From positions 62,001-126,000 of the forward strand of contig JABLXB010000008.1 in the NCBI GenBank assembly GCA_013178305.1: DNA of 64,000 bases, written 5' to 3'. A program made the position numbers and the translations under genes. Below, one piece after another: positions 7,489 through 62,108 of this stretch; position 1 is the stretch's first letter, and each line of letters starts with the position of its first letter. The notes below the pieces were generated by a model. The model did no database searches and was not told where the DNA came from. It worked only from the letters and a program-made list of their open reading frames with translations. The DNA comes from Bacillota bacterium (GTDB taxonomy: Bacteria > Bacillota > Sulfobacillia > JABLXB01).

Positions 7489-8361
7489 ATGAGGAACATC
7501 CGGATAACTATACAGTACGACGGATCCTCCTACCAGGGTTTCCAGGTCCAGGGCGAAGCCCCCACCATCCAGCGCGCCATACAGGATGCGCTGGAGGTAA
7601 TCGTGGGGGAGCGCGTTCCCGTGACGGGGGCCGGCAGGACGGACGCCGGCGTACACGCGCTCGGGCAGGTAATCAACTTCAGGACGGCGTCGAGCATCCC
7701 CGTTGATAGGTTCCCACACGCCCTGAACAGCGTGCTTCCGGACGACATAGTCGTAGTGGCCGCCGCCGAGGTCCCCGCCGGTTTCCACGCCCGCTACAGC
7801 GCCACCTCCAAGGTCTACACCTACACGTTCTGGAACGGGCCGTTCCCGTCGCCGTTTTACCGTAGGTACTCCCTGTGGGTACCGCAGTCGATCGACGTGG
7901 AGGCCATGAAGGCCGTCGCGGCGGAGTTCGTAGGGACGCACGATTTCGTCGCGTTCAGGTCGACGGGGAGTTCGGCCGTCACGACGCGCCGCACGGTGCT
8001 CCGGTCCACGGTGGACGAGCACCCCGCGCTCGAACCGGCGCGCGGCGGTGGCGCGAACGGCGGCCCCGGTGAAGACGGCGGCGTGGCCCCCGGGTCCGGC
8101 GGCACCCACGTATCGCACCGGATAGTCGTGTTCACGGTCGAAGCGGACGGCTTTCTCTACAACATGGTTCGCGTGATGGCAGGGACGCTTCTGGAAGCGG
8201 GGCTGGGGAAGCGCAGCGCGGAAGACGTCCGGCGCGCGCTGTTCTCCGGCGAGCGGCGGCTCGCTGGACCGACGCTCCCGCCTCAGGGGCTGTGCCTCGA
8301 GGATGTCAGGTACGGGCCGCTGGAAGGGCGGAGGCGGACTCGAGCAGGCGCCGCGCGGTGA
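7489..8361 (+). CDS. truA: tRNA pseudouridine(38-40) synthase
   Basis: TruA modifies uridines 38-40 of tRNA anticodon arms. The catalytic Asp is D52 in GAGRTDAGVHA. The C-terminal FLYNMVRVMAGTLLEAG is typical. The frame is open upstream to 7321, but ATG 7489 with GGAGG at about 7475 gives MRNIRITIQYDG, the family start. At 290 residues it is longer than most TruA proteins because of a Gly/Pro-rich insert at about residues 180-205. The last 56 bases overlap the convergent SorC-family gene. Confidence 0.95.
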   Translation: MRNIRITIQYDGSSYQGFQVQGEAPTIQRAIQDALEVIVGERVPVTGAGRTDAGVHALGQVINFRTASSIPVDRFPHALNSVLPDDIVVVAAAEVPAGFHARYSATSKVYTYTFWNGPFPSPFYRRYSLWVPQSIDVEAMKAVAAEFVGTHDFVAFRSTGSSAVTTRRTVLRSTVDEHPALEPARGGGANGGPGEDGGVAPGSGGTHVSHRIVVFTVEADGFLYNMVRVMAGTLLEAGLGKRSAEDVRRALFSGERRLAGPTLPPQGLCLEDVRYGPLEGRRRTRAGAAR

Positions 8362-9301
8362 CCTCGCCCGTTATCAGGCCGTCGAGCCATCCCCCGGAGA
8401 TCGCGCTCATGATCGCGTTAACCTTGTGGCCGCCGGCTGCCACGGCGATTATCCTCTTCGCTATCCTCCGGACCCGTTCAACCGGCAGCGCCACCAGCCG
8501 CTCGTTCACCACTCCCGGGAGTATCCCGCCGCGTTCGTCGAGGAACCACGGGCCCACGTTTCCCACGGAGCCCGCCGATCTGAGGGTCTCGAGGTCGTTA
8601 TTCTCGATGTAACCCATCTCGAAGACGGTGGACCCCGAGAGCGCGCCGATGCCCACCAGCACGAGATCGAGGGAGTCCAGCCCCCCCCATATCTGCGAGA
8701 TCGCCGGCATGTTCAGGAACATGTCTCGCTCCTCACGGCTCGATGCGTAAGCGGGCGCGTGCACGCAGTACGCGTCGCCACCGAACCTTTCCGCCAGCGT
8801 TATGGCCACGTAGTTCCCCTGTATCTCGGGGTGGTGGGGGCCGAGGCCTCCCATCACCGGTATTACGGATACCCCCAGGTGCCTCGGCGAGCGGATGCTG
8901 CGCACGGTCTGGTACAACGTCTTGCCCCACGCCACGCCGATCCTTGCGGACGGCTCGACCGTCGAGATGATGTAGTCGGCCGCGACCCCCGCCACGAGGG
9001 CCGTGTCGTCCTCGCCGCCTGAGCCATGGTGCCTCGCGACGACAGCCTCCTTGATTCCGAGCGCCGCTTTCAACCTCTCCGACAATTCCACGGATCGCAC
9101 GAACGCCGGCGAGAGCTCGATCCGGACGATCCCCAGATCCCTGGCCCTCCGCAGGAGACGCGAAACCCACGGGCGCGATATCCTCAAGCGGGTGGCGATC
9201 TCCTGTTGGGTACGCCCCTCGGAGTAATACAGATAGGCCGCTTCCACCAGGCGCTCGAGTCCGGCCTCACCGTCAGGGTTGAGCGCGTCTTGCTTCAGCA
9301 T
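8306..9301 (-). CDS. SorC-family sugar-responsive transcriptional regulator
   Basis: The 331-residue protein has an N-terminal helix-turn-helix (YYSEGRTQQEIATRLRISRPWVSRLLRRA, about 20-50) followed by a sugar-phosphate-binding/isomerase-like domain (GVAWGKTLYQ, GGLGPHHPEIQGN, DLVLVGIGAL). Known SorC regulators repress or activate adjacent sugar operons in response to sugar phosphates. It is divergent from the PTS genes starting at 9420, so it is their likely regulator. ATG 9301 has a GGTGAGG site. The longer open frame upstream runs across the promoter and is not used. Its 3' end overlaps truA. Confidence 0.9.
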   Translation of the reverse strand: MLKQDALNPDGEAGLERLVEAAYLYYSEGRTQQEIATRLRISRPWVSRLLRRARDLGIVRIELSPAFVRSVELSERLKAALGIKEAVVARHHGSGGEDDTALVAGVAADYIISTVEPSARIGVAWGKTLYQTVRSIRSPRHLGVSVIPVMGGLGPHHPEIQGNYVAITLAERFGGDAYCVHAPAYASSREERDMFLNMPAISQIWGGLDSLDLVLVGIGALSGSTVFEMGYIENNDLETLRSAGSVGNVGPWFLDERGGILPGVVNERLVALPVERVRRIAKRIIAVAAGGHKVNAIMSAISGGWLDGLITGEVTARRLLESASALPAART

Positions 9302-9328
9302 CTTCCTCACCGTAGCCCGCGGGCGTAA

Positions 9329-9358
9329 TTGACGCTCATCACGAGCCTGCGGTATAAT
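9329..9358 (+). promoter_or_regulatory. Sigma-A type promoter of the PTS operon
   Basis: TTGACG (9329-9334) and a perfect TATAAT (9353-9358) are separated by 18 bases. Transcription would start near 9365, about 55 bases before the IIB gene. The regulator gene reads away on the other strand from 9301, so this 118-base gap is the probable SorC operator region. Confidence 0.75.
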
Positions 9359-9419
9359 TCTATCAGTAACATATGGCAACTGGCAAGCACAAATGTGCGT
9401 AATCTGGTAAAGAAGGGGG

Positions 9420-9728
9420 GTGGACAAACTGAAGAGCCTAAACGTCATCGCGGTGTGCGGGCACGGCCTCGGTAGCAGCATGCTCTTGAAGATCAACCTG
9501 GAAGAGATATTCGGCGACCTCGGAATCAATGCCAACGTCGAGACGTGCAACGCCGGAGAGGCGTCGGGCTTCATGAGCGGCGTGGACATGGTCATCACCA
9601 CACCCGAGCTCTCGAAGATCATCGAGCTCAGGGAAGGCATCCCGGTCCTCACGGTCGAGAACTTTCTCGACAAAGGGGAAGTCGGGGCGAAACTGAGGGA
9701 GTTCCTCAAGAAAGCCGGCTGGATGTAG
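9420..9728 (+). CDS. PTS system IIB component, ascorbate/lactose-IIB fold
   Basis: The 102-residue cytoplasmic protein contains VIAVCGHGLGSSMLLKINLEE; the Cys in CGHGLGSS is the expected phosphorylation site of UlaB/SgaB-type IIB proteins. GTG 9420 sits right behind AAGAAGGGGGG. It is the first gene of the operon, 43 bases before the IIC gene. Similarity to the ascorbate family identifies the transporter class but not the substrate. Confidence 0.92.
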   Translation: MDKLKSLNVIAVCGHGLGSSMLLKINLEEIFGDLGINANVETCNAGEASGFMSGVDMVITTPELSKIIELREGIPVLTVENFLDKGEVGAKLREFLKKAGWM

Positions 9729-9771
9729 GCAGGTCCCACCCAGAGATAAGGTAATTAAGGAGGGGAGATCC

Positions 9772-11079
9772 GTGGAATGGGTAAAACCCGTCCTGGACGT
9801 AATCCTTAACCAGTTCCTCACCAAGTTCGAAGTCATGCTCACGCTCGTCGTCACGCTCGGCTACGTTCTGCTCCGGCGTCCTGCAGCCCGAGTCATCAGC
9901 GGCGCGATCAAGACCGCCGTCGGCATCATGATCCTTCAGGCCGGCTCAGCGTACCTGACGACAAACTTCCGGCCTGTACTCGACATCCTGCAGAAATCCT
10001 TCAACATGAAGGGTGTCATTATAGACCCGTACGCCGGTCTTCCGGCCGCGACGGCAGCGCTGAAGGACTACGCGGGTTACGTGGGATACACGATCATCAT
10101 CGCGTTCGCCCTGAACATCCTGTACGTCCGGTTTACCAAGGCCAGGGCCGTGTTCCTCACCGGCCACGTGATGTTCATCCAGTCCGCGATCGCGACCTGG
10201 TGCGTGAAGTACACCACCGGGTTGGACATATGGCCCTCCGTGCTTATCGCCGCGTTCCTCCTGTCACTGTACTGGACGGTATTCCCGCACCTCCTGATAA
10301 AGCCGACGTCCGTCGTCATCGGCGGCAGGGAGGCGCCTCGCGAGGAGTTCACACTCGGCCACCAGCAGATGCTCGCCGATGTCCTGGCCTTCAGGTTCGG
10401 CTCGCTGTTCGGTAAGCCCGAGGAGAGCGTGGAGAAGGTAACCCTTCCGGGATGGCTCGCGATAATCCAGGACAACGTCGTCGCGACCTCCGTCATAATG
10501 ACCCTGTTCGTGTCGGCCTTCATGCTCGCCGCCGGGCCGGCGGCCGTACAGGCGCAGGCCGGCGCACAGCACTGGTTCATCTACATGCTGTTCATGGGAC
10601 TCCGCTTCGCGGTCGCCATCGCCATAATCCTGTCGGGCGTCCGAATGTTCGTCTCCGAGCTCGTCTCATCGTTCAAGGGTGTTTCGGAGAAGCTGCTGCC
10701 TGGCGCAGTAGCGGCGATCGACTGCCCCGCGGTGTTCCCCTTCGCCCCGAAGGCGGTCACCCTCGGGTTCATTTGCACCGTCATTGGCCAGGTCATCGGC
10801 ATAGCGACCCTCATTCTCTCGGGTTCGCCCATCATGATCATCCCCGGCTTCGTGCCGCTGTTCTTTGACGGCGGCCCCGTCGGCGTGTACGCGAACGCTT
10901 CGGGCGGCTGGCGGGCGACCGTGGTGTGCTGCATGCTCCTCGGGTTCGTGCACATCTGGGGCGCAAGGCTGGTCATACCCGTCACCGGCATGGTGGGTGG
11001 CTGGATCGGGAATTTCGACTGGAGCACGATGTGGTCGGCCGTGTTCTGGGGTTTGAAGGCGATATTCGGCGGTATCTGA
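9772..11079 (+). CDS. PTS system IIC component, ascorbate (UlaA/SgaT) family
   Basis: The 435-residue integral membrane permease has about ten or eleven hydrophobic helices. UlaA-like features include TLGYVLLRRPAARVISGAIKT, GHVMFIQSA and the GVRMFVSELV loop. GTG 9772 follows AGGAGGGGAG. It would translocate a sugar acid or related sugar, phosphorylated by the IIA and IIB proteins of the same operon. The substrate is not determinable from sequence. Confidence 0.92.
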   Translation: MEWVKPVLDVILNQFLTKFEVMLTLVVTLGYVLLRRPAARVISGAIKTAVGIMILQAGSAYLTTNFRPVLDILQKSFNMKGVIIDPYAGLPAATAALKDYAGYVGYTIIIAFALNILYVRFTKARAVFLTGHVMFIQSAIATWCVKYTTGLDIWPSVLIAAFLLSLYWTVFPHLLIKPTSVVIGGREAPREEFTLGHQQMLADVLAFRFGSLFGKPEESVEKVTLPGWLAIIQDNVVATSVIMTLFVSAFMLAAGPAAVQAQAGAQHWFIYMLFMGLRFAVAIAIILSGVRMFVSELVSSFKGVSEKLLPGAVAAIDCPAVFPFAPKAVTLGFICTVIGQVIGIATLILSGSPIMIIPGFVPLFFDGGPVGVYANASGGWRATVVCCMLLGFVHIWGARLVIPVTGMVGGWIGNFDWSTMWSAVFWGLKAIFGGI

Positions 11080-11135
11080 GCCGGAGTCGCGTAGTTCGAC
11101 TGGCCGGTGCGGCCTCCGGCTGCGCCCCCATTCAC

Positions 11136-11163
11136 AAGGGGGAGGAGAAACCTCCTCCCCCTT
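11136..11163 (+). terminator. Perfect 12-bp hairpin between the IIC and BtpA genes
   Basis: AAGGGGGAGGAG (11136-11147) and its exact complement (11152-11163) are separated by an AAAC loop. Only a short T-run follows, so it may be a leaky terminator or an mRNA-stabilising element that lowers expression of the downstream genes relative to IIB/IIC. Confidence 0.7.
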
Positions 11164-11175
11164 TAGGATAGGCTG

Positions 11176-11976
11176 GTGGATGCTGTGAGCTGGCTCAAGG
11201 AGAAGTTCGGGACCGATAAGGTGATACTCGCGTCCGTTTATCTCCCGCCCCTCCCGGGCTCGCCGGGTTTCAAGCCCGGCACGAGCATGGACCAGATGGT
11301 GGAGCAGGTGGTGGAGCAACTCGAACCCCTCAGAGAAGGGGGGGTCGACGGCGCGCTCCTGGGCAATCAGGGCGACAGGCCTTTCCTGGCAGGCGTGGGC
11401 CATGAAACCGTGGCCGCGGCCACCCGCGTCATCTCCGACGCGGTCAGGGCGGCCCCCATCCAATTCGGCGTCACCGTGTTCTGGGACACCGCCGCGGCAA
11501 TCGCAATCGCCCGCGCAACCGGCGCGTGCGTCGTGCGCGGGGTATTCGGGGGCGCCTACGCCGGCGAGATGGGCCTCGTGCAGGTGAGTTCGGGCGAGAT
11601 CCAGCGTTACAGGAACTCCGTGGACGCATCCGGCATCCGCACCATGTTCATGCTCAAGCCGATATGGAGCTACACCCTCGACCCGAGACCTGTGGAGGTC
11701 ATGGCAAGAGAGGCCGTCACCGTTTCCGGGGCGGACTCGATAGCGCTGTGCGGCCCCGAAGTGGGGGACGCGCCGGACCTCGGCGACCTCGAGAAGGCCA
11801 GGCAGGCGGCCGGCGGCGTGCCCGTCCTGTTGAACAACGGCGCGAACACCTCCAACGTGGGGTCAATACTGAAGGTGTGTGACGGCGTGGTCGTCGCCAC
11901 AAGCCTCAAGAAATCGGGGAAATTCGACCGCGACGCGGTCATGAGGTTCATGGACCTTGTCCGGAGCGTCCGTTGA
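11176..11976 (+). CDS. BtpA/SgcQ-family TIM-barrel protein
   Basis: The 266-residue protein resembles BtpA/SgcQ: an early VYLPPLPGSPGF segment, DGALLGNQGDRPF, FGVTVFWDTAAAIAIA, ADSIALCGPEVG and VPVLLNNGANTSNV, with the periodicity of a beta/alpha barrel. SgcQ-type genes are found in PTS sugar operons such as E. coli sgc, but their reaction is not established. GTG 11176 lies a few bases behind a weak purine-rich site. It is flanked by PTS genes on both sides, so a role in metabolism of the imported sugar phosphate is likely. Confidence 0.88.
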   Translation: MDAVSWLKEKFGTDKVILASVYLPPLPGSPGFKPGTSMDQMVEQVVEQLEPLREGGVDGALLGNQGDRPFLAGVGHETVAAATRVISDAVRAAPIQFGVTVFWDTAAAIAIARATGACVVRGVFGGAYAGEMGLVQVSSGEIQRYRNSVDASGIRTMFMLKPIWSYTLDPRPVEVMAREAVTVSGADSIALCGPEVGDAPDLGDLEKARQAAGGVPVLLNNGANTSNVGSILKVCDGVVVATSLKKSGKFDRDAVMRFMDLVRSVR

Positions 11977-12009
11977 CGTCCACCGCGGATGCCACCGGGA
12001 GAGGAGAGA

Positions 12010-12492
12010 GTGGGAACCGTGCTGAGCGAAGTCCTGAATGGGAAGACGATATCCCTGGGTGTGGAGGCGACCGATTGGAGGGACGCGGTTCGCAAGGGCG
12101 GCAGGTTGCTGGTCGCCAACGGGTACGCCGAGGAGCGATACATCGAGGCGATGGTCAAGACCGTCGAGGACATGGGCGCGTATATCCTGGTGGCGCCCGG
12201 CCTGGCGCTCCCGCACGCGCGCCCTGAAGACGGCGCGCTGAAGCCCGGGCTGAGCCTGATGACTCTGAAAAAGCCCGTGTTGTTCAGCGCGGAGCGCCCC
12301 CCGGCCGACATCATCCTGAGTTTCGTGGCGGTCGACAACACGAGCCACATTGGGCTGTTACGAGAGGTAGCCGCGATGTGCTCGGAGCCCTCGAACCTTC
12401 AACTCATCAGGCAGGCCAAGACGGTCTCAGAAATCGCGGAATTGATCAGGACGAGCGGTGGGCCGGCGCGCAGCGGACCCACCGGCGCTTGA
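12010..12492 (+). CDS. PTS system IIA component, mannitol/fructose/ascorbate type
   Basis: The 160-residue protein contains LVAPGLALPHARPEDGAL; the His in PHARP is the phosphorylated residue in this IIA family. The C-terminal half (DIILSFVAVDNTSHIGLLREVA) also fits. GTG 12010 follows GGGAGAGGAG with good spacing; an ATG at 11989 lies upstream of that site and is less likely. It completes the phosphorelay to the IIB at 9420. Confidence 0.92.
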   Translation: MGTVLSEVLNGKTISLGVEATDWRDAVRKGGRLLVANGYAEERYIEAMVKTVEDMGAYILVAPGLALPHARPEDGALKPGLSLMTLKKPVLFSAERPPADIILSFVAVDNTSHIGLLREVAAMCSEPSNLQLIRQAKTVSEIAELIRTSGGPARSGPTGA

Positions 12493-12517
12493 TCGCAACA
12501 CGGGGAGGGTGCGGGGC

Positions 12518-13252
12518 TTGGAGCGTTCTTCGCTGACGATGCAGGTTAAGGAATTCGCCGGGTCGCTCGGCGCCGGGCTCGTTGGGGTGGCGGACGCAAA
12601 CCGCGTGGCGGAAGTGGAACCGGTCCCGGAGCGCAGGCCTGAGTTCTTTTTGCCCGGAGCGCGGTGCGTCGTGGTGATCGGCCTCAAGATGGTCGACGCC
12701 ATCATGGACCGGCTTCGCGGCCTGAAGGACCAGTATGACGAGACCCTGATCGGGTATCTCCGGCACTACAACTACGCGACCCTCGACCTGATCGCGTGCA
12801 GGACCGCTCGTTTTCTGGAGGACCAGGGGTGGGACGCTTACCCCATCCAGGCGAGAATGACCGACAAGGACGAGTACAGCGCGGTGTTTTCGCACAAACC
12901 GGCCGCGGTCGTGGCTGGGCTCGGGGTCAGGGGGAAGCACGGCCTCGTGGTAACCCCGGAGTTCGGGCCGAGGGTGCGGTTTGTTTCGGTCATAACCGAC
13001 GCTCCACTGGAGTGCGCCGGACCGGGGGTGGAGAAGCCGTCGTCGGTGTGCGGCTCCTGCCACGTGTGTATCGACCTCTGCCCAGGGAAGGCGATAGAGG
13101 AACCCGGCCCGGATGGAACGCCCAGGCACGACAGGGATCGTTGCCTTGCGATATACAAGCAGTACAGGTGCGCCCTTTGCCAGGGCGCGTGCCCGAAGGG
13201 GAAAGCGGCGGCCGCGGCGCGGCGCCGCCGCAAGGGTGCCCCCGCGGTCTAG
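12518..13252 (+). CDS. 4Fe-4S ferredoxin-domain protein, QueG-like
   Basis: The roughly 244-residue protein has an N-terminal domain like that of epoxyqueuosine-reductase relatives (GARCVVVIGLKM near 48, YATLDLIACRTARFLEDQGW). Its C-terminal cluster site is CGSCHVCIDLCPGKAI ... CALCQGACPKG, which gives two CxxCxxC-type motifs. It lacks the extra C-terminal HEAT-like part of full QueG, so a tRNA role is doubtful. The start is uncertain (TTG 12518 or ATG 12539). Its place between the IIA and lactonase-like genes suggests a redox step in the same pathway. Confidence 0.75.
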   Translation: MERSSLTMQVKEFAGSLGAGLVGVADANRVAEVEPVPERRPEFFLPGARCVVVIGLKMVDAIMDRLRGLKDQYDETLIGYLRHYNYATLDLIACRTARFLEDQGWDAYPIQARMTDKDEYSAVFSHKPAAVVAGLGVRGKHGLVVTPEFGPRVRFVSVITDAPLECAGPGVEKPSSVCGSCHVCIDLCPGKAIEEPGPDGTPRHDRDRCLAIYKQYRCALCQGACPKGKAAAAARRRRKGAPAV

Positions 13253-13272
13253 ATATAGGGAGGGAACGGATT

Positions 13273-14226
13273 TTGGCTAAAAAGGTACAGACGGTACTCG
13301 GGCCCATCGACCCCGAGCAGCTCGGGATTACCGACATGCACGACCACCTGATCAGGACCGGCGGCCAGGAAGTGCGCGAGGACAAGGACTTCCTGCTCAA
13401 CGACGTTGAGAAAGCCGTGAAGGAGATGGAGGACTATTACGCCTGCGGCGGAAGGTCGCTGGTCGAGGCGATGCCGCTCGGCTGCGGGCGCGACGCGCTC
13501 AAGGTGCTCGAGGTCGCGCGCAGGTCGAAGGTAAACATCGTCATGATCACCGGGTTTTTGAAGAATCGTTTCTACGACGTCATGCACTGGCTGCTGCACT
13601 ACTCGGCGGAGCAGGTCGCGGGCCTCCTGATCAAAGAGATCACCGAGGGTATGGACCGGTACAACTACGTGGGACCGATCGTCGAGCGCATCCCGTCCAG
13701 GGCGGGAATGCTCAAGGCTGCCACGAGTTACCACTGTATAACGCCCGCTGAGGCGAAGGCGCTGCACGCGGTGGCGATCGCCCACAACGAGACCGGTGCG
13801 CCTATACTCACCCACACCGAGTACGGCACGATGGGGATGGAGCAGATTGAGACGTTCAAGAAATACGGTGTGGACCCCGCCAGGGTCACTATATGCCACA
13901 TTGACCGCAACCCCGATTTCGACTACCACAGGATGGTGGCCGACACAGGCTGCTTCCTGGTATACGACGGTCCCGGCCGGACGAAGTACTACCCGGACGA
14001 GGTCATAATCAACCTGATCAAGCGGATGGTGGACGCCGGCTACCAGAAGCAGATAATGCTTGGTCTCGACCTCGGCCGCGCGTCGTACTGGAAGACCAAC
14101 AACGGAGGCCCCGGATTCTGCTACATCATCGAGAAGTTCGTCCCGCGCCTGAAGATGGCGGGCATCAGCGACGCGGCCATCCAGGACTTCCTCGTCAACA
14201 ACCCCATGAGGGCTCTGGCTTTCTAG
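13273..14226 (+). CDS. Phosphotriesterase-family (PTE-like) hydrolase, lactonase candidate
   Basis: The 317-residue metal-dependent TIM-barrel hydrolase has metal ligands visible in TDMHDHLI (HxH, near 22), HTEYG (His), ICHIDRNPD (His) and GLDLGRASYW (Asp). TTG 13273 is preceded by GGGAGGGAAC; the longer frame upstream is a shadow. Members of this family found beside ascorbate-type PTS genes hydrolyse sugar-lactone phosphates, so lactone ring opening of the imported sugar acid phosphate is a reasonable inference. It is the last gene of the island, followed by a strong terminator. Confidence 0.85.
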   Translation: MAKKVQTVLGPIDPEQLGITDMHDHLIRTGGQEVREDKDFLLNDVEKAVKEMEDYYACGGRSLVEAMPLGCGRDALKVLEVARRSKVNIVMITGFLKNRFYDVMHWLLHYSAEQVAGLLIKEITEGMDRYNYVGPIVERIPSRAGMLKAATSYHCITPAEAKALHAVAIAHNETGAPILTHTEYGTMGMEQIETFKKYGVDPARVTICHIDRNPDFDYHRMVADTGCFLVYDGPGRTKYYPDEVIINLIKRMVDAGYQKQIMLGLDLGRASYWKTNNGGPGFCYIIEKFVPRLKMAGISDAAIQDFLVNNPMRALAF

Positions 14227-14260: not shown

Positions 14261-14291
14261 AAACCCGGGGGCTCGGAAGCCCCCGGGTTTT
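14261..14291 (+). terminator. Rho-independent terminator of the PTS island
   Basis: A perfect 12-bp stem AAACCCGGGGGC / GCCCCCGGGTTT (14261-14272 and 14279-14290) closes a TCGGAA loop and ends in TTTT. It separates the sugar island from the rplM promoter, whose -35 box starts 3 bases later. Confidence 0.85.
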
Positions 14292-14293
14292 CC

Positions 14294-14322
14294 TTGACAC
14301 ACCAGGGGTCGTTGTATAGAAT
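14294..14322 (+). promoter_or_regulatory. Sigma-A type promoter of rplM-rpsI
   Basis: TTGACA (14294-14299) and TAGAAT (14317-14322) are 17 bases apart. The start site would be near 14329, about 48 bases upstream of rplM. The promoter lies directly behind the terminator of the sugar island, so rplM-rpsI is transcribed independently of the alpha operon here. Confidence 0.75.
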
Positions 14323-14376: not shown

Positions 14377-14811
14377 ATGAAAACCACCTACCTGGCGAAA
14401 CCGGGTGAGGTTGCCCGAAAGTGGTACGTTGTGGACGCATCCGGCAAGGTACTCGGGCGCCTGGCAAGCCAGATAGCGAAGATACTCCGGGGCAAGACTA
14501 AGCCCGAGTTTACCCCGTACGTCGATACAGGGGACTTCGTCGTAGTCGTCAACGCGTCGAAGATCGTACTGACCGGCAAGAAAGCGGAGAGGGATTTCTG
14601 GTACAGGCACAGCGGTTACCCGGGAGGACTCAAGGTGACCTCTCTGGGTGAACTCAGGGCCAAGAAGCCCGAGAAGTTGATCGAGCTCGCGGTCAAGGGC
14701 ATGCTGCCCCACAACTCACTGGGCAGGCAGCTTGCGAGGAAGCTCAAGGTATACACCGGAGCCGAGCATCCGCACAAGGCCCAGCAGCCCGAGCCGCTCG
14801 ACATAGCGTAA
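14377..14811 (+). CDS. rplM: 50S ribosomal protein L13
   Basis: The 144-residue protein starts [20 protein letters not shown] and carries [24 protein letters not shown] and [17 protein letters not shown] 14377 has GAGGGGG 7 bases upstream; the frame continues upstream to 14338 without a better site. It is co-transcribed with rpsI. Confidence 0.98.
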
Positions 14812-38444: not shown

Positions 38445-40326
<1,882 letters not shown>

Positions 40327-60572: not shown

Positions 60573-62108
60573 ATGGATCACGGCACAAAGCGGCCTCGCC
60601 CGCTTTGCCTCACGATAGTCGACGGCTGGGGTCTCTGCGAGGCGGGCCCCGGGAACGCATGCTCCGTGGCACTAACCCCCGTTCTCTCGGGCCTCCTCCG
60701 GGATTACCCGAGCTGCAGGCTGAGGGCTGACGGCGAGGCCGTGGGCCTTGAGTCCGGGCAGATGGGCGATTCCAACGTGGGCCACCTCAACATCGGGGCC
60801 GGCAGGATTGTGTACCAGGACCTGGCGCGGATCAACCGCTCGGTCGCCACGGGGGACATATACCGCAATGAGGCCTTGCTGAAAGCGGTATCCCACGTCA
60901 AGCGGACGGGCGGCCGGCTCCACTTGATGGGGCTTCTTTCCGACGGGGGCGTGCACAGCCACATCAACCACCTGATTGCCGTGCTGAAACTCTCGAAGAG
61001 CGAGGGTGTCGCGGACGTCGCTGTCCACTGCTTCATGGACGGGCGCGACACGTCGCCCACGTCCGGCAAGGGCTTCATCGAACACATCGAGTCCAGCATC
61101 CGCGAGAGCGGTGTGGGTTCCATCGCGACGGTCATGGGCAGGTACTACGCGATGGACCGCGACAAGAGGTGGGACCGCACGAAACAGGCGTTTGACGCCA
61201 TCGTTTCCGGTGAAGGTCACGAAGTCGACTCAGCCTTGAATTGGATTGAGGAATCGTATGCCGGCGGCCAAACCGACGAGTTCATACTTCCGGGGGTGAT
61301 CCGGGGCTACCAGGGCATCCTGCCCGGCGATGCGGTGATATTCTTCAATTTCCGCGCGGACCGCGCGAGGCAGATCTCGCACGCCCTCCTCGACGAGGCG
61401 TTCGAGCCGTTCGACCGCGGGGGCTACATGCCGGTGCCGGTCGTGGGAATGGCCCAGTACGAGGAAGGCCTGGACATGCCCGTGGCATTCCCGCCGCAAT
61501 ACCTCAAGAACACGCTGGGTGAGGTGTTGAGCCGCAAGGGCCTGCGCCAGCTGCGGATAGCCGAGACCGAGAAATACGCTCACGTCACGTTCTTCTTTAA
61601 CGGAATGGAGGAGAAACCGTTCGAGGGCGAGGACAGGATCCTCATCCCGTCGCCCAGGGTCGCCACCTACGACCTGAAGCCCGAGATGAGCGCGCCGGAG
61701 GTCACCGGCACGGTGATCGGAGAGGTGCGGTCCGGCAAGTACGACGTGATAATCCTCAATTTTGCCAATCTCGACATGGTCGGCCACACGGGGATCATGG
61801 AGGCGGCCGTAAAGGCGGTGGAAACCGTCGATCGCTGCGCGGGTATGGTTGTAGACGAAGTGCTGAAGGCCGGCGGGGCCACCTTGATCTGCGCCGACCA
61901 CGGCAACGCCGAAAAGATGCTGGAGTGCGGCGGCGGACCGTGTACCGCGCATACCTCGAACCCCGTGCCGTTCATACTGGTCGACCCGTCGAGGCGGGGC
62001 GCCCGGCTAAGGGATGGCATACTCGCGGACATCGCGCCCACGATGCTGAACATGCTCGGTATCGAGCAACCGGTCGAGATGGACGGGAAATCCCTGATCG
62101 TGAGATGA
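60573..62108 (+). CDS. gpmI: 2,3-bisphosphoglycerate-independent phosphoglycerate mutase
   Basis: The 511-residue enzyme has TIVDGWGLCEAGPGN near its N-terminus, the catalytic Ser67 in GQMGDSNVGHLNIGAGR, HCFMDGRDTSP, FFNFRADRARQ, and metal-site segments NFANLDMVGHTG and CADHGNAEKM. ATG 60573 gives the usual family length; TTG 60564 is also open. Confidence 0.96.
   Translation: MDHGTKRPRPLCLTIVDGWGLCEAGPGNACSVALTPVLSGLLRDYPSCRLRADGEAVGLESGQMGDSNVGHLNIGAGRIVYQDLARINRSVATGDIYRNEALLKAVSHVKRTGGRLHLMGLLSDGGVHSHINHLIAVLKLSKSEGVADVAVHCFMDGRDTSPTSGKGFIEHIESSIRESGVGSIATVMGRYYAMDRDKRWDRTKQAFDAIVSGEGHEVDSALNWIEESYAGGQTDEFILPGVIRGYQGILPGDAVIFFNFRADRARQISHALLDEAFEPFDRGGYMPVPVVGMAQYEEGLDMPVAFPPQYLKNTLGEVLSRKGLRQLRIAETEKYAHVTFFFNGMEEKPFEGEDRILIPSPRVATYDLKPEMSAPEVTGTVIGEVRSGKYDVIILNFANLDMVGHTGIMEAAVKAVETVDRCAGMVVDEVLKAGGATLICADHGNAEKMLECGGGPCTAHTSNPVPFILVDPSRRGARLRDGILADIAPTMLNMLGIEQPVEMDGKSLIVR

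Follow-up and report, generated by a model that had tools for sequence, protein, structure and literature searches.

Which substrate would a bacterium take up and degrade with an ascorbate-type phosphotransferase system (PTS) that is encoded together with a BtpA/SgcQ-family protein, an iron-sulphur (Fe/S) protein and a phosphotriesterase (PTE)-family hydrolase? The question is raised by an island at 8306-14226 of a 64,000-nucleotide stretch of DNA (the window; positions 62,001 to 126,000 of contig JABLXB010000008.1, assembly GCA_013178305.1) from a Bacillota bacterium of the Sulfobacillia lineage. Profile matches confirmed seven genes in this interval, encoding a SorC-type regulator, the PTS components IIB, IIC and IIA, BtpA, the Fe/S protein and the PTE. 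An earlier note on this DNA had observed that the set does not match the textbook ascorbate pathway, and indeed UlaD, UlaE and UlaF, like UlaG, are absent from the genes at 8306-14226, the rest of the genome not having been searched for UlaD or UlaG. We consider the chances evenly balanced that the island is a self-contained, probably substrate-induced operon for an ascorbate-like lactone, processed through the PTS, the PTE, BtpA and a reductive Fe/S step. This reading draws on the gene content and order of the island, its insertion, the families and conserved site residues of its products, and a matching island in another phylum.

Six genes lie on the plus strand in the order IIB, IIC, BtpA, IIA, Fe/S protein and PTE, with gaps of 43, about 96-105, 12, 46 and 20 bp, and the regulator gene points away from them, so that the unit consists of a SorC-type regulator and a six-gene operon. 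The earlier description of the genes as one ordered unit holds, with the correction that the regulator is divergent and lies outside the operon of six closely spaced genes.

Transporter and substrate pocket

The proposal of an ascorbate-type transporter is borne out by the UlaA, UlaB and UlaC-type families of the three components, and by an IIC score above the NF006919 cut-off. The window IIC aligns over its full length with E. coli UlaA (4rp8; 1.6e-108), and its pocket was compared, in E. coli UlaA numbering, with the published list of ascorbate-contacting residues (PMC6048161). The contacts Y87, H135, H194, Q195, D314 and F362 are retained, as are the pocket residues G58, G286 and R288. The change T86P is shared with the characterised P. 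multocida UlaA, and I136V and I358V are conservative. Two contacts are changed, Q139I and M410N (window residues I136 and N414); both changes are also present in the IIC of the Chloroflexi island L145 described below.

Among 16 UlaA proteins compared, Asn occupies position 410 in all six BtpA-linked proteins and in none of the nine others from outside E. coli. The same position holds Asp in creatininase- or transketolase-linked proteins, His in those accompanied by a class II aldolase and a HAD protein, and Met in E. coli; it is possibly a substrate marker. Taken together, Q139I, M410N and the distribution of Asn410 suggest that the window IIC carries a substrate that resembles ascorbate but differs from it.

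Divergent BtpA and lactonase-like hydrolase

BtpA/SgcQ proteins are widespread, and to our knowledge no reaction has been established for them. The contigs were searched for BtpA with an alignment as the query, which gave matches, the BtpA protein alone giving none. Homologues of the window BtpA point to a start at 11185. The motif of the divergent BtpA is VRGxFxGxYAGEMG. Five presumably catalytic positions (H22, E65, Y70, N159 and E163), all of which reach 90% conservation or more in the rest of 63 BtpAs, are replaced in the window protein, in that of L145 and in that of an island on contig C7 of the window genome; N220, G222, D236 and T242 are kept in all three. Replacement of these near-invariant residues points to a divergent BtpA that likely has a different substrate or chemistry. 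Its predicted structure (pLDDT 96) matches the phosphate-binding barrels PRAI, ThiE, KDPG aldolase, HPS and RPE in a fold search. Assignment of a reaction from this search was abandoned, because many phosphate-binding barrels gave similar scores.

For the PTE, the best-matching family is the phospho-furanose lactonase family NF045706, although the score of 325 bits is below the cut-off (630). Among solved structures it matches the Mycoplasma lactonase MS53_0025 best (3msr/3ovg; 8.7e-82). Alignment with this protein locates six metal ligands (H23, H25, K148, H181, H209 and D266). With a constant offset of two, K238, Y239, R269 and Y272 are identical in the two proteins and position 212 is changed from Lys to Arg; these five positions reportedly bind phosphate in MS53_0025, described in 2014, so that four of the five are identical in the window PTE. 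Family placement and retained site residues therefore agree with the earlier suggestion that the enzyme is probably a sugar-lactone-phosphate hydrolase. At the PTE loci read in the phylum sample, UlaA is a common neighbour of the PTE gene, and a creatininase-family gene is frequently there as well.

Fe/S protein

The Fe/S protein (237 aa) scores below the cut-offs of both the reductive dehalogenase (RDH) family TIGR02486 (2.5e-16; 60.5 against 160 bits) and the QueG family TIGR00276 (7.7e-16; 58 against 200 bits). Its structure model (pLDDT 88) matches the folds of QueG, PceA, NpRdhA and MMACHC, and the sequence contains eight cluster cysteines in the pattern CxxCxxCxxxCP ... C ... CxxCxxxC, an active-site Tyr (Y77) that is kept in 23 of 27 homologues, and an Asp that aligns with the catalytic Asp of QueG. 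It stops after the clusters, without C-terminal HEAT repeats, and is thus not an epoxyqueuosine reductase. As judged from sequence and model, it is a minimal core of the class III cobalamin/[4Fe-4S] reductases (QueG/RdhA superfamily). Of the earlier wording, "ferredoxin-like" is rejected in view of this core fold, and "QueG-like" stands for the superfamily but not for QueG itself. Other B12-binding domains are present in the organism, and the closest relative of the protein (in G399, about 50% identity) has no PTS alongside.

Related islands

The window genome holds a total of five BtpAs, five PTEs and six UlaA-type IICs, in several islands with differing partners; BtpA was found in neither of two genomes of the same family that were examined for it. 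The combination of BtpA, PTE and UlaA recurs in five other islands, namely one on contig C1 of the window genome (L014), L145, L160, L168 and L169, the last two being nearly identical. Only two cases were found in which an Fe/S gene accompanies the combination, namely the window island and an island in one Chloroflexi metagenome-assembled genome (MAG), where the protein belongs to a different subfamily. The co-occurrence proposed earlier therefore extends to BtpA, PTE and UlaA, and the Fe/S gene is not generally co-conserved.

The second of these cases is L145 (Chloroflexi MAG-37, JACIWX010000002), which contains IIC, IIB, IIA, a divergent BtpA, a PTE and an RDH-family protein. Identities to the window proteins are 56% (IIC), 52% (PTE), 49% (IIA), 48% (BtpA) and 38% (IIB), the highest among the islands compared for IIC, IIA, BtpA and IIB, with the PTE tied with that of an island on contig C3 of the window genome. 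The RDH gene sits between IIC and IIB and its product scores 245 bits, above the cut-off of 160; it has no Tat-like leader, unlike the other RDH of that genome, which fits a cytosolic role. L145 differs from the window island in its GntR regulator, in having a larger RDH where the window encodes the short protein, and in additional RPE, UROD/MtaA-like and C_GCAxxG_C_C redox proteins, the last two (L145:3033-4606) being in one cluster with the RDH and PTS genes. When 298 genomes of the class of this MAG were searched for the divergent BtpA, the BtpAs found outside the MAG itself were of at most 41% identity.

Several further islands have other partners. L014 (G000:C1:480139-485241) has creatininase, BtpA and PTE genes; together with L160, L168 and L169 it represents a DeoR-regulated type with UlaA, IIB, PTE, a creatininase-family gene and one or two BtpAs, which is also present in Clostridia. 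The C3 island (L040, G000:C3:37616-47765) is another case of SorC with UlaABC, and also encodes two PTEs, a class II aldolase, a Cof-type HAD phosphatase and a PDH-like E1a/E1b/E2 set; L248 has a related but shorter version. The C7 island combines BtpA with UlaE-like and UlaF-like genes and their own PTS. At L016 (G000:C1:194583-197832) a mannose-type PTS is followed by BtpA, and the order ManIIC, ManIID, BtpA is also seen in L260. In L277 (G445:C2:34481-43697), BtpA lies amid genes that, judged by eye from the sequences, resemble those for PsuG, a nucleoside hydrolase, a phosphorylase and PfkB, and the cluster has the look of one for nucleoside catabolism.

Genomic setting and control sites

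In all 12 relatives with both truA and rplM on the contig the two genes are direct neighbours (14 relatives were checked, in 2 of which the fetched contig did not reach truA). The island occurs at truA/rplM only in the window genome, so that an insertion between these genes in that lineage is the best reading. The GC content at third codon positions of the island genes resembles that of truA, so composition bears no mark of recent arrival. The two edges of the island share a direct repeat of 10 bp, GCTCGCTGGA (8259 and 14231), which was judged weak, as about 0.15 such repeats are expected by chance (our estimate).

The features are collected in Table 1. Shuffled versions of the entire 6.3-kb region contain a mean of 1.0 promoter-like site. 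The hairpin downstream of the PTE gene is likely the terminator closing the operon, and is not among the sites listed by the terminator scan; the one between IIC and BtpA is a possible processing or attenuation site. Elsewhere in the window, a group II intron is present at 38530-40326 (Rfam RF02001, RF01998, RF00029).

Table 1. Genes, signals and flanks of the island (window coordinates)
Feature	Coordinates	Strand	Basis or remark
truA, left flank	7489..8361	+	3' end runs 56 bp into the sorC 3' end (tail to tail)
SorC/DeoR-type sugar-responsive regulator, divergent	8306..9301	-	PF04198 1.2e-54
Promoter-like site, operon	9329..9358	+	TTGACG-18-TATAAT; 11/12 consensus match only
Promoter-like site, regulator	9357..9386	-	TTGCCA-18-TAGAAT; 10/12 consensus match only
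Candidate operator	9387..9398		GCACA-AA-TGTGC, inverted repeat with 5-bp arms, read from sequence
PTS IIB, UlaB-like	9420..9728	+	PF02302, NF007586
PTS IIC, UlaA-like, EIIC-GAT	9772..11079	+	PF03611 3.5e-102; NF006919 398 bits, cut-off 380
12-bp perfect hairpin between IIC and BtpA	11136..11163	+	RNA fold of 11078-11200, z = -6.6
BtpA/SgcQ-family TIM barrel, divergent subtype	11176..11976	+	PF03437 3.3e-52, 177.9 bits; TIGR00259 179.4, cut-off 153.4
PTS IIA, UlaC-like	11989..12492	+	PF00359, NF007694
Short class III cobalamin/[4Fe-4S] reductase core, no HEAT domain	about 12539-13252	+	profile, fold, cysteine pattern
PTE-family hydrolase, probable phospho-sugar lactonase	13273..14226	+	PF02126 1.6e-57; NF045706 4.5e-97
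Hairpin AAACCCGGGGGCT-CGGA-AGCCCCCGGGTTT, 13-bp, GC-rich	14261..14290	+	short T tail; read from sequence
rplM, right flank	14380..14811	+	own promoter-like site at 14294-14322

Comparison with known systems

With the Ula system the island shares its IIA, IIB and IIC types and a largely retained UlaA pocket, but in place of the Ula enzymes it encodes a PTE, BtpA and an Fe/S reductase, and it differs further in two pocket residues and in its SorC-type regulator. The Mycoplasma phospho-furanose lactonases represented by MS53_0025 are the best PTE subfamily, with metal ligands and phosphate site kept, and differ from the window PTE in the gap between its score and the family cut-off and in its BtpA and Fe/S partners. 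QueG and the reductive dehalogenases have the core fold, the two-cluster cysteine pattern and the active-site Tyr in common with the window Fe/S protein, which, however, lacks both the HEAT domain and a Tat signal, is short, and is encoded in a PTS operon.

The E. coli sgcABCEQX operon likewise combines a PTS with a BtpA-family protein, SgcQ. It has a Gat-type PTS, the M42 hydrolase SgcX and the RPE-like SgcE, and no PTE or Fe/S protein, whereas the window has an UlaA-type IIC and lacks M42 and RPE genes; moreover, the BtpAs of sgc-like clusters retain the residues that are swapped in the window BtpA. The substrate of the sgc operon was still unknown in a 2026 paper, in which the operon was induced under purine-related conditions (PMC13343008). 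No description of the window gene set was found in a limited search of the open-access literature.

Proposed pathway and alternatives

In the order of steps that we infer, the UlaABC-type PTS would import and phosphorylate an ascorbate-like sugar lactone other than ascorbate, and the PTE would open the phosphorylated lactone, standing in for the UlaG of the ascorbate pathway. The divergent BtpA might then rearrange or cleave the resulting sugar-acid phosphate, roughly in the place of UlaD. Through cob(I)alamin and two [4Fe-4S] clusters, the Fe/S protein could make one reductive change on the phosphorylated substrate, such as removal of a leaving group, and SorC would sense a pathway sugar phosphate. 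The set of UlaABC PTS, PTE and BtpA recurs, and its best explanation is that it serves the catabolism of phosphorylated lactones. The Fe/S reductase would be a further, rarer part, its functional link resting on two islands with different subfamilies, and we suggest only tentatively, and with some doubt, that a cobalamin/Fe-S reductase of the QueG/dehalogenase superfamily acts reductively on a PTS-imported phosphorylated ascorbate-like lactone.

Several observations weigh against the full pathway. Cobalamin binding by the Fe/S protein is only predicted, and no cobalamin riboswitch was found near the operon. The Fe/S family is widespread elsewhere without a PTS, and the proteins of the window and L145 belong to different subfamilies with 26-35% identity. 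L145 is moreover a single MAG with three RDH/QueG-type proteins; at about three such genes per 3 Mb of genome, one would by chance be a neighbour at up to five genes' distance in ~1% of cases (our estimate). As to the other components, the TM-scores of BtpA to solved barrels are just 0.5-0.6, which does not fix its chemistry, and Asn410 may merely reflect common descent of the BtpA-linked transporters. A less likely reading is that lactone-phosphate catabolism is performed wholly by the PTS, the PTE and BtpA, and that the Fe/S protein is merely carried along in the operon or has a housekeeping redox role, such as corrinoid handling. The four islands with BtpA, PTE and UlaA and no Fe/S protein (L014, L160, L168 and L169) would fit such an arrangement, as would the many unrelated contexts of short QueG-like genes; it is disfavoured by the presence of an RDH/QueG-type protein inside the cluster in both islands with divergent BtpA and PTE, in two phyla, by the short gaps on both sides of the window Fe/S gene, and by the leaderless L145 protein, which is consistent with a cytosolic role.

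The substrate itself might be a different one. Fermentation of ordinary L-ascorbate, with the PTE in place of UlaG and the UlaD, UlaE and UlaF steps supplied from elsewhere in the genome, would account for the UlaABC-like PTS and its mostly retained ascorbate contacts, and the C7 island does have UlaE-like and UlaF-like genes; we nevertheless think it improbable, given the altered contacts Q139I and M410N, the fact that those genes accompany a PTS and BtpA of their own, and a cobalamin-type reductase for which known ascorbate catabolism has no need. We attach still less weight to a PTS operon for a sugar that is derived from nucleosides or is of the pentose type. BtpA would then be a pentose-phosphate isomerase or epimerase, and the substrate of the PTE would be a phosphorylated ester and not a lactone. 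BtpA is indeed found with RPE and FGGY kinases and in the nucleoside-type L277 cluster, and the purine-related induction of sgc points the same way. However, the UlaA pocket remains near the ascorbate type, the PTE phosphate site matches phospho-lactonases, and the window BtpA is of another subtype than the BtpAs of such clusters.

Implications

In this island BtpA stands beside a transporter pocket that can be read and a probable lactonase of known reaction class, which leads to a short list of candidates that can be assayed. If the proposal is correct, the BtpA/SgcQ family would gain a defined place next to a phospho-lactonase. The known roles of class III cobalamin enzymes are dehalogenation and tRNA modification; the Fe/S protein is a lead that they may also serve sugar catabolism, which they would enter if the reductive step is real.

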